Source of the DNA: Paenibacillus humicola
Lineage (GTDB): Bacteria; Bacillota; Bacilli; Paenibacillales; Paenibacillaceae
Assembly (NCBI RefSeq): GCF_028826105.1
Contig: NZ_JAQGPL010000001.1
Location: 4,862,501 to 4,926,500, forward strand
Reading direction: 5' to 3'
Length of the DNA: 64,000 nt
Below, piece after piece: positions 8,440 through 11,633 of this stretch. Under the pieces are notes generated by a model. The model was given only the letters and a program-made list of their open reading frames with translations. It did no database searches and was not told where the DNA came from. Positions within the stretch are counted from its first letter, which is position 1, and the number at the start of each line of letters is the position of its first letter. Both the position numbers and the translations under genes were made by a program.

Positions 8440-8971
8440 CTATGATCGATGATTGAGATAAACCACGCCGATTTTGCCCGTCGTCATATCGTTCCGCTCC
8501 GGGCCTGGCGCAATCTCTTGTATGCGGACGTCGTACCGGTCGGCCAGACGGTTCAATCTGTCAAAAGCAACGATCCGTTCGCCGCGGATGGTGACGTAGA
8601 GAATGAGCTCCACGCCAAGCGGATCGTGAACCTTCTCGTTCTTTTCCCTGATCGTGCCGCCCATGTAGGCGGCGTATTCTCCCGTGCAGCCGCAGTAAGG
8701 ACATTCGTCGGCATATGGATGGATCTGGCGGGGACGATCGACCTCGTAATGCACGCTTGCGGCGACCTGGTAATAGCGGCCCTCCGCGGTCTCGACCGGA
8801 TTGCAGGCGCGAAGCGGCGCATAATAAAACCGCAAATGTACGTGTCTCCCGGCTGACCTGGAACCGGACGCACAGCTCCTTCTCCGTCGGCAGTCTCCCT
8901 CCCTCATGGAAGAGCCCTTGATCGATTTCCTTCATCAGAACAGCTGAAATCGCCGAGTATCGATTTGCCAT
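8440..8971 (-). pseudogene. Damaged GntR-family regulator: intact N-terminal helix-turn-helix joined to an unrelated frame
   Basis: Reading minus from the ATG at 8971, the first ~43 residues are a good GntR winged-helix start: YSAISAVLMKEIDQGLFHEG then LPTEKELCVRFQVSRET. Just after the recognition-helix SRET (about 8843) the frame continues as arginine-rich nonsense. The adjacent frame (down to 8440) is open and protein-like, with a CPYCGC motif and a C-terminus ending KIGVVYLNHRS that I do not recognise. The rest of the GntR wing is missing. The simplest reading is a deletion/frameshift that fused a GntR start to the tail of another gene. A sequencing error alone would not restore the wing. 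Low certainty about the identity of the downstream part. Confidence 0.5.
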
Positions 8972-9370: not shown

Positions 9371-10318
9371 TCAACTTTTCGCCAGACGATCCATGATCAT
9401 CTTGACCGATTTCGTTAAATGGCCGTGATAATCGTTCCAGGGCCTGCCGCTCACGATCGACAGCCGCCGAATCCCGATCCACAAGGCCCAAAGCTCGATT
9501 TCGTGCAGGTCGTCATGTGTGAGTCTGCTCACTTCGTCATACCCTTTTGCCAAGGCATCAAAGCCGCTAAACATCTGCCGACCGTCATGCAAGAGATAAT
9601 GGCCCAGATCGTACAGAGGGCTGTTCGCCTGGATTTCGCCGAAATCGATGATGCCCGAGAATGTTCCGCCACGGAAGAAAATATGCGAATCGTCAAAATC
9701 GCCGTGATTTAAGCGGAATTCATGCCTGGACATGCATGCCGCTCCGTCGTTCAGGGTGCTTTTGATCCGGGACACGTCCCCGCTAGCGAGCAAATTGTCC
9801 GATAACCGCGCCAAATCGCCGTCCAGAAATTCATAGACAAAGTCCTGCCACGCTCGTTTCTCGCCCCGCAAAGCCGGGCCGGACGCCGCTTTGTCCAGGT
9901 GCACCCAGCCGAAGCCGTCGACTTTGATCCGGTTGATGCGCGCAAGCTGTTTGCCGGCTTTAGCAAGGACGCGCTCGTATTCGCCGCGGGATGAACAGCT
10001 TTCCACGGGGGAACCGGGAATCTCTTTGACCAGCATGACGGACATCCCGACAGCTTCATGATGAGGCTCGAAATAAACGACCTCCGGCACTTGAACGTCA
10101 TTTTGCCCGAGTAAGGCATGGACATGAACCTCCGCGGCAAAGCTGTTGTCCGGTTCCGGCAAAATCCGAAGATAGAAGGTATCCCCGCCGGCATGAATCC
10201 GGTACACATACGTCGATACGCCGCTCAGCACCCTCTCGATTCGGAAAGTAGCCGATTTCAGGCAATCGGCCGCAATTTGGGTAACGACTTCGATCTGCGG
10301 AGGGTCTTTTTTACGCAT
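9371..10318 (-). CDS. Aminoglycoside phosphotransferase-fold (APH) kinase
   Basis: A 315-residue cytoplasmic protein with the choline/aminoglycoside kinase fold. Catalytic-loop HGDFDDSHIF is at residues 205-214 and the metal-binding IIDFGE at 223-228. An N-terminal lobe contains YLRILPEPDNSF and a hinge-like VMLVKEIPGSP. In most APH enzymes the catalytic loop reads HGDxxxxN. Here the position of the Asn is occupied by His (SHIF), which could alter metal binding. The family phosphorylates antibiotics, choline, homoserine or other small molecules, and the substrate cannot be told here. It is transcribed away from the HTH-F1beta fusion gene, from a shared 211-bp intergenic region, and has its own terminator. 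Confidence 0.8.
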   Translation of the reverse strand: MRKKDPPQIEVVTQIAADCLKSATFRIERVLSGVSTYVYRIHAGGDTFYLRILPEPDNSFAAEVHVHALLGQNDVQVPEVVYFEPHHEAVGMSVMLVKEIPGSPVESCSSRGEYERVLAKAGKQLARINRIKVDGFGWVHLDKAASGPALRGEKRAWQDFVYEFLDGDLARLSDNLLASGDVSRIKSTLNDGAACMSRHEFRLNHGDFDDSHIFFRGGTFSGIIDFGEIQANSPLYDLGHYLLHDGRQMFSGFDALAKGYDEVSRLTHDDLHEIELWALWIGIRRLSIVSGRPWNDYHGHLTKSVKMIMDRLAKS

Positions 10319-10474: not shown

Positions 10475-10503
10475 TTGCTTTTAAGAGTAATTTAAATTAC
10501 TAT
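10475..10503 (+). promoter_or_regulatory. Promoter with 16-bp palindromic operator for the HTH-F1beta fusion gene
   Basis: A -35 TTGCTT (10475-10480) and a -10 TACTAT (10498-10503) are spaced by 17 bp. The perfect palindrome AGTAATTTAAATTACT (10486-10501) fills the spacer and enters the -10. It overlaps a second imperfect palindrome, TTACT-N6-AGTAA (10497-10512). A repressor bound here would block RNA polymerase. The encoded protein has an HTH, so autoregulation is plausible but inferred. Confidence 0.55.
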
Positions 10504-10529
10504 TTAAAGTAACAAGGAGGTGCTGAAAT

Positions 10530-11588
10530 ATGGATGACGATTTACAGCTTAACGTTCCTTTATTGCGCCGGCGCGTGCCGAATCTAACTTCCGCGGCGCG
10601 GGCAGCCGGACTCCGGGCGGCGACGGTGTCCAACCTATGTACGGGCAAAATTCCGGTCGGGCGGGCCGAAGTGCGAACGCTCGCGGCCCTTGCGTCGTTA
10701 GCTGGCTGCTCGCTGGATGAACTTATTATTCGGGGAGGTCATGTACGGATGATCGAAACGGGAATTAAAGCGCTGGATTTGCTGGCGCCGGTCGTGCGAG
10801 GCGGTACGGTGGGATTGGTGGCCAGGGCGAACATGGGGCAGCTGGTGCTGCTGTCCGAGCTGATGCTCCGGATGAAGAAACGGGGATATGCTGCCGTTTT
10901 TTGGCATCCTGGCGCCGATGCGCCGGGAATCGGCGACGTCCAAGCCGAGGCGGAGTTTACGCATTCGACCAAGGACGAAATTTATGAGCGGATTGTCAGC
11001 CTTCGCGAGGAAAAGGATGTTTTGCTTGGCCTGGACCGGAGCAAGGTTTTGTCCGGCGAATTGTTTGCGCTGCGCGAAAGCCTGCAGGAGGCCGGCGCCA
11101 GACCGGTCACCATTGCGCTGGTCGACATCCAGTATGAGCTTGCGGACGACCAGGGGGCATACGGACCTCTGGATACCCTTTGGCGGTTCGATTCCGATTT
11201 GATCAGCCGCAGCATTTATCCCGCGATCGATCCCGTCGCCTCCACATCGACCGTACTGGAAGGCTCGCATTTGGACGCCGTCCATCTGACGACGCAGCAG
11301 CGGGCGCGGAAATTGCTGCGCCGATACCGTGAACTGCGGCCGCTCGTTGCCGCACGAGGGATGGAACGGATCCCGGAGCCGGACCTGCAATTTTACAAGC
11401 GGGGGGAACGGCTTGAAGCGTACCTCGCCCAGCCCTTTTATGTCGCCGAGCCTTTTACGAAGAAACCCGGCGAGTGGCTGACGCTTTACGAGACGCTGGA
11501 CGATGTCAAACGGATTCTTGACGGGGAGACGGATGAAATCGAACCTTCGGAGCTGATGTTCAGGGGACGTTTGGAGGTCCGGTCTTAA
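10530..11588 (+). CDS. XRE-type HTH fused to a degenerate F1-ATPase beta-subunit-like domain
   Basis: This 352-residue protein has two parts. Residues ~8-66 form an XRE/Cro-like HTH (TSAARAAGLRAATVSNLCTG then LAALASLAGCSLDELI). From residue ~72 it follows the nucleotide-binding and C-terminal domains of ATP synthase beta. ETGIKALDLLAP (76-87) matches the beta ETGIKVVDLLAP. IYPAIDPVASTST (229-241) matches IYPAVDPLASTSR. The helical region RRYRELRPLVAARGMERIPEPD (264-285) matches the DELSEED region, and QPFYVAEPFT follows. The Walker A position reads VARANMGQL instead of GGAGVGKT. The GERTREGN catalytic-glutamate loop and the LLFIDNIFRF segment are absent, and the N-terminal beta-barrel is replaced by the HTH. 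It is therefore unlikely to hydrolyse ATP, and a regulatory protein that senses something through the old ATPase fold is inferred. GGAGGTG precedes the ATG. I know no named family for this architecture. Confidence 0.82.
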   Translation: MDDDLQLNVPLLRRRVPNLTSAARAAGLRAATVSNLCTGKIPVGRAEVRTLAALASLAGCSLDELIIRGGHVRMIETGIKALDLLAPVVRGGTVGLVARANMGQLVLLSELMLRMKKRGYAAVFWHPGADAPGIGDVQAEAEFTHSTKDEIYERIVSLREEKDVLLGLDRSKVLSGELFALRESLQEAGARPVTIALVDIQYELADDQGAYGPLDTLWRFDSDLISRSIYPAIDPVASTSTVLEGSHLDAVHLTTQQRARKLLRRYRELRPLVAARGMERIPEPDLQFYKRGERLEAYLAQPFYVAEPFTKKPGEWLTLYETLDDVKRILDGETDEIEPSELMFRGRLEVRS

Positions 11589-11599
11589 CAGGGAGGTAA

Positions 11600-11633
11600 A
11601 GCCGCCGGCTGCCAAGCCAGGCGGCTATTTTTT
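11600..11633 (+). terminator. Rho-independent terminator of the HTH-F1beta gene
   Basis: A stem GCCGCC (11601-11606) / GGCGGC (11620-11625) is followed by TATTTTTT. A closely similar hairpin core occurs at 13179-13207. Confidence 0.85.

Follow-up and report, generated by a model that had tools for sequence, protein, structure and literature searches.

A gene of the soil bacterium Paenibacillus humicola encodes what appears to be a genuine, undescribed type of transcriptional regulator, in which a helix–turn–helix (HTH) domain of the XRE type is joined to a catalytically degenerate F1-ATPase β-subunit (F1β). The gene lies in a 64,000-nucleotide stretch of DNA, the window, and we call its product HTH-F1β. 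The appearance of a real regulator comes from the recurrence of the protein in many relatives together with a conserved element at its own promoter. The first-pass annotation had proposed a catalytically degenerate F1β paralogue joined to an HTH; the same residues are indeed lost across many species. It had also suggested an undescribed protein class, and a limited literature search returned no account of a catalytically dead F1β as a domain of an XRE regulator. The putative operator, the kept Walker-B aspartate and the amide-hydrolase link are new relative to that annotation. Architecture, lost and kept residues, operator, link of operator to gene and partner genes are all read from sequence. 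We propose that the protein is probably a one-component, self-regulating repressor, the pseudo-ATPase half of which would sense a ligand, oligomerise or both.

Domain layout and family of the HTH-F1β protein

The XRE-type HTH is predicted to form a five-helix fold and scores 21.9 bits against Pfam HTH_26, 0.1 bit under the gathering score of 22.0; one relative (P0127) has a precomputed PF13443 match. The HTH replaces the N-terminal β-barrel of F1β, and the F1β fold of the nucleotide-binding and C-terminal domains is present in the remainder; the score against NCBIfam atpD is 125.7 bits (cut-off 462.85). Thus, both the HTH expected at residues ~8–66, now also predicted by structure, and the F1β-like part expected from residue ~72 without the barrel were recovered (Table 1). 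The HTH is the best-conserved part of the protein (mean major-residue fraction 0.886), followed by residues 72–126 and 161–335 (0.72–0.77) and residues 127–160 (0.46).

Table 1 Features of the HTH-F1β locus (window positions)
Feature	Positions	Strand	Basis or remark
Operator site 1, TTGCTTTTAAGAGTAA	10475..10490	+	TTGCTT (10475-10480) at −35 position
Operator site 2, TTACTATTTAAAGTAA	10497..10512	+	perfect 5+5 palindrome; TACTAT (10498-10503) at −10 position
Ribosome binding site AGGAGG	10515..10520	+	sequence
HTH-F1β gene	10530..11588	+	ORF, 352 aa; Pfam, NCBIfam and PDB matches
XRE/Cro-C1 type HTH	10542..10733	+	residues 5-68; family search and predicted structure
F1β-like nucleotide-binding and C-terminal region	10743..11579	+	residues 72-350, without β-barrel
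Degenerate Walker A	10821..10844	+	residues 98-105, ARANMGQL; GGAGVGKT in F1β
Walker B remnant DVLLGLDR	11016..11039	+	residues 163-170; Asp169 kept
Stretch with base-pocket residues Y230, F303, A306, F309	11217..11456	+	alignment
Terminator-like hairpin, then ATTTTTT	11607..11626	+	weak: 1 found, mean 2.2 in shuffles

Residues were compared with the genome's own AtpD as reference, in the 120 best homologues and in the 93 sequences of a tree (rows L145, L213 and L077 left out). The Walker A motif is degenerate, as the first-pass annotation had noted: the position of its lysine is occupied by Gln104 in 120/120 of the best first-search homologues and in all 93 tree sequences, and that of its threonine is replaced, mostly by Leu (95/120), with Ser or Thr at 105 in none of the 93. 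A second search contributed another 32 homologues, in which the lysine position holds Gln (27), Lys (3), His (1) or Pro (1). The three lysines (P0133, P0136 and P0141; 3/152) are each followed by Leu, and GK[ST] occurs in 0/152 homologues with sequences examined and in 0/93 tree sequences; the ordinary AtpD with an intact P-loop that might have turned up in other assemblies was not seen among them. The positions of the catalytic Glu/Arg loop (GERTREGN in F1β) are unconserved and the loop is shortened, the NIFRF stretch is gone, and alignment with AtpD thereby bears out the reported absence of GERTREGN and IDNIFRF. Past Walker B, 24 residues are deleted in 120/120 homologues.

Other positions are retained. 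The Walker-B Asp169 is Asp in 119/120 homologues and 92/93 tree sequences. We take the adenine pocket of F1β to consist of four positions (bovine Tyr345, Phe418, Ala421 and Phe424); at these, the 93 tree sequences have Y/F230 in 93, F303 in 91, A/S306 in 90 and F/Y309 in 85. Judged by the residue losses and the conserved pocket positions, the phosphate and catalytic sites are lost from the family and the base pocket is kept. For the dead nucleotide sensor that the first-pass annotation had raised as a possibility, the base pocket would thus be available and the phosphate site would not.

Relatives were collected by two homologue searches (1977 and 911 matches; the best 120 of each were analysed, and the remaining tails may include AtpD) and by a genome scan (248 loci, of which 80 were retained). 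The best 120 of the 1977 cover at least 94% of the query at 59–82% identity, and nearly all are 332–373 aa long. They carry the names Paenibacillus, Alicyclobacillus and Caldalkalibacillus, with metagenome bins of Brevibacillus, Symbiobacteriaceae and, once, Pseudomonadota; the genome scan adds Bacillus, Sporosarcina, Oceanobacillus, Halobacillus, Lysinibacillus and others. In genome samples, the gene was found in 13/148 of the host's family, 12/299 of the class and 2/219 of the phylum, with one match per genome. By sequence matching, the family is thus patchily distributed within Bacillota, in several orders. The survey of Paenibacillaceae called for by the first-pass annotation, here extended to other relatives, finds the same architecture and the same lost residues in many species.

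Most of the best 120 are annotated as hypothetical protein or ATP synthase beta subunit, and the family is evidently misannotated, since several public sources call its members ATP synthase subunit beta. That some sources label relatives F-type ATPase subunit beta would also suit a misassembly or a broken copy of AtpD. We reject this reading, the probability of which is close to nil: full-length relatives from many independent genomes share the missing residues and a common operator, and a genuine AtpD with an intact P-loop is encoded elsewhere in the genome, 0.62 Mb away. Gene decay was considered for G143, G621, G613 and G629 and discarded; their single stops are natural ORF ends, with G143 ~14 residues short.

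A mobile-element origin was also rejected. The plasmid collection gave one record at E ≤1e-40. In Paenibacillus cellulositrophicus (L004), the replicon that carries the gene is 897 kb long and is entered as a plasmid. Nineteen records were found in the phage collection; the ten rows examined align only over query residues 72/74 to 349, at 27.9–29.5% identity and with an AtpD-like pattern, and four of the ten are annotated atpD or F1β. The phage records with AtpD-like stretches are probably host contamination. As a separate observation, a DUF1992/DJC28_CD protein is encoded downstream of the regulator in L032 and L043 and is fused to it in P0080 (Paenibacillus tarimensis).

The putative tandem operator and its promoter

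Two palindromes of 16 bp each, TTGCTTTTAAGAGTAA and TTACTATTTAAAGTAA, lie upstream of the gene at a spacing of 22 bp. The general pattern is TTGC-N8-GTAA followed 22 bp on by TTAC-N8-GTAA, over the putative promoter. One or more sites matching at least 8/10 are present in 76/81 upstream regions, compared with 15.3 in Markov resamples, and three or more sites in 23/81. Pairs matching at least 16/20 occur in 74/81 regions, 63 of these 74 with the 22-bp spacing. Among 2250 segments of 160 bp drawn at random from these loci, 13 reach a pair score of 16/20 and 10 a score of 17/20; reversed loci, under a stricter rule, gave 5 pairs in 1.29 Mb. In all 12 loci added after the motif had been set, the 160 bp upstream contain a pair matching at least 17/20; they represent 11 new genomes (L213 is from the genome of L026) and include one locus from another class.

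The strict tandem pattern follows the gene across the host's family: it occurs in 10/13 gene-bearing genomes, each time at the gene start, versus 2/135 gene-less ones (Fisher 1.8e-11, for genomes that are related and so not independent). Among gene-bearing genomes, G122 and G146 have a looser operator ~1.85 kb upstream, at the operon head, and G143 (the contig of L032) one with 21-bp spacing. Five of the 81 upstream regions have no site at the gene. Four of them (L022, L027, L031 and L034) have a pair 1.0–1.4 kb upstream, in front of the BAAT or FmdA gene that lies ahead of the regulator; in the fifth, L069, the operator is at −617 and no clear gene separates it from the regulator. By these counts, the predicted tandem operator is tied to the HTH-F1β gene. 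In L069, the intervening stretch, ~570 bases ahead of the gene, has no clear ORF and is possibly an insertion; an Rfam search of it gave no RNA element at gathering score.

When up to 3 mismatches are allowed, the window's genome has a single copy of the tandem operator. Two other exact single sites in this genome lie inside ORFs and were judged to be chance. A separate tandem search with 3 mismatches matched a control pattern equally often and was set aside.

The two sites coincide with promoter-like boxes. TTGCTT and TACTAT are 17 bp apart in the window, and TTGCNN-17-TACTAT fits −35 and −10 boxes; site 1 begins with TTG in 58/63 and site 2 with TTA in 62/63, which suits such boxes. The window's own boxes are weak (7/12 consensus bases), and a promoter scan reported no promoter. 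Weak core boxes would suit an activator of its own promoter; however, the operator spans the −35 and −10 elements themselves, the usual position for a repressor, and we consider activation improbable. We consider it very likely that HTH-F1β regulates itself by DNA binding, and likely that it does so by repression.

The 211-bp intergenic region that contains the operator also separates the regulator from a divergent APH-family (PF01636) phosphotransferase gene (9371-10318, minus strand), which could be a second target. Elsewhere in the window, a GntR-like HTH start recognised by eye (8440-8971, minus strand) and an overlapping ORF in another frame resemble a split regulator gene.

Candidate targets and a proposed mechanism

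Clustering of neighbour genes at 81 loci found no family in more than 16/81, except for a shadow ORF antisense to the HTH-F1β gene (70/81). A recurring neighbour is the acetamidase/formamidase FmdA_AmdA (PF03069; FmdA). It adjoins the regulator in 12/80 loci (one a 77-aa remnant), less than 2 kb away and in the same orientation, is found at 2–8 kb in none, and does not adjoin it in 68/80. These FmdA genes come before or after the regulator and in both halves of the 93-sequence tree, on which at least 10 changes are required. Seven FmdA genes stand apart from the regulator in regulator-bearing genomes; two have the operator (L231; L178/L237) and five do not. In regulator-less genomes, 17 FmdA genes were scored (three partial matches, L200–L202, left out) and none exceeded 13/20. 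Across the family, FmdA and regulator occur together no more often than chance predicts (3/13 versus 20/135 genomes, p 0.43).

Other hydrolases also accompany the regulator. A second strict tandem operator was found in 4 of 49 gene-bearing genomes searched (of 50; that of L022 was left out), and precedes a P-loop protein and FmdA (L178), an amidase-signature protein (L179) and an M3 peptidase (L176); in L177 it has no clear target gene. In L073, an amidase-signature gene lies directly 3′ of the regulator; in L022, L027 and L032, the regulator is found with BAAT-type hydrolases. This FmdA type was not found in the window's genome which, with its single tandem operator, leaves the regulator's own gene as the sole visible target there.

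Two further gene arrangements were noted. In four Sporosarcina loci (L074, L076, L077 and L080), a related gene of 190–203 aa directly follows, ~1.1 kb from the start of the regulator gene; in L080, this gene has a match to PF10706, a nucleotidyltransferase-type family. In nine Bacillus/Fredinandcohnia loci (L033, L041, L044, L047, L052, L054, L055, L059 and L060), which also have other gene order in common, a convergent gene of ~275 aa follows the regulator.

We propose the following model for the one-component repressor. HTH dimers would bind 16-bp palindromes of the form TTRC-N8-GTAA, two or more of which lie ~22 bp apart over the protein's own −35 and −10 boxes. This spacing corresponds to two helical turns, so the F1β-like halves could join neighbouring dimers into a tetramer or larger oligomer on one face of the DNA, and the bound oligomer would block RNA polymerase by promoter occlusion. 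The F1β-like half would have lost ATP hydrolysis with the P-loop Lys/Thr and the catalytic Glu/Arg, kept its fold, and now serve as an oligomerisation and effector-binding module. An effector akin to small amides or to a base would bring about release. In certain lineages, this promoter would also drive a small amide or thioester hydrolase (FmdA, amidase-signature or BAAT-like), and this sharing suggests that the effector may be a small amide-type or related metabolite. DNA binding itself, the repression, the oligomer state and the effector are what we infer in this model. We lean towards a small-molecule effector; an amide-type one is a tentative suggestion.

Two other roles for the F1β-like half can be weighed against this model. 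It may be an oligomerisation scaffold only, binding no ligand, in an autorepressor that senses its own concentration. Loss of the P-loop, the multi-site operator with 22-bp spacing and the lack of a second tandem operator in the window's genome are all compatible with a pure scaffold, but the base pocket and Walker-B Asp are conserved in 93 sequences beyond what a scaffold would seem to need, and links to hydrolase genes recur; we regard it as unlikely, though worth keeping in mind. Alternatively, HTH-F1β may pair with F1α or another part of ATP synthase and report energy or assembly state to transcription. The closeness of its fold and C-terminal region to AtpD would allow this, yet the crown of β-barrels is missing, the gene is 0.62 Mb from atpD, the partner genes are hydrolases, and the genome has no second tandem operator at up to 3 mismatches, and therefore none at the atp genes. 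Such pairing is very improbable.

Returning to the repressor model, its boldest form is a ring- or chain-forming pseudo-ATPase sensor: its former adenine pocket would recognise a base without phosphate or a metabolite of the amide type, and the protein would control, through tandem operators phased at 22 bp, its own gene and, in certain lineages, amide hydrolases; we offer this as speculation, more likely wrong than right. The operator makes the function of the regulator directly testable.

Comparison with known systems

The catalytic subunit of rotary ATPases is among the most conserved proteins known, and an F1β that has lost catalysis and become the C-terminal half of a regulator would be a new evolutionary route for this fold. 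HTH-F1β resembles AtpD in its nucleotide-binding and C-terminal fold, Walker-B Asp, base-pocket aromatics and a DELSEED-like region. It differs in lacking the β-barrel and GER motif, in having Gln for the P-loop Lys and a hydrophobic residue for the Thr, in the added HTH and the 24-residue deletion after Walker B, and in not being encoded beside atp genes. Another repurposed F1β paralogue is the β-subunit of the Mycoplasma G1-ATPase/MMOB1670 gliding ATPase (9io5, NF045858), a much longer protein that belongs, by title, to gliding machinery; we know of no HTH regulator role for it. Among structure matches, HppE/HEPD-type enzymes also combine an XRE-like HTH fold with an enzyme fold in one protein, but they are cupin-type oxygenases, not P-loop proteins.

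One-component XRE regulators that carry additional domains are already known and, if our reading is true, HTH-F1β would found a family of F1-derived one-component transcription regulators. It shares the HTH fold with XRE/Cro-C1 repressors such as SinR, CylR2 and the restriction controller proteins, the operators of which are palindromic and located at their own promoters; the HTH-F1β gene likewise has a conserved palindromic site near its own promoter. According to its PDB title, one controller protein, C.Esp1396I, sits as a tetramer on its natural operator of 35 bases. What sets HTH-F1β apart from these repressors is its F1β-like C-terminal half.
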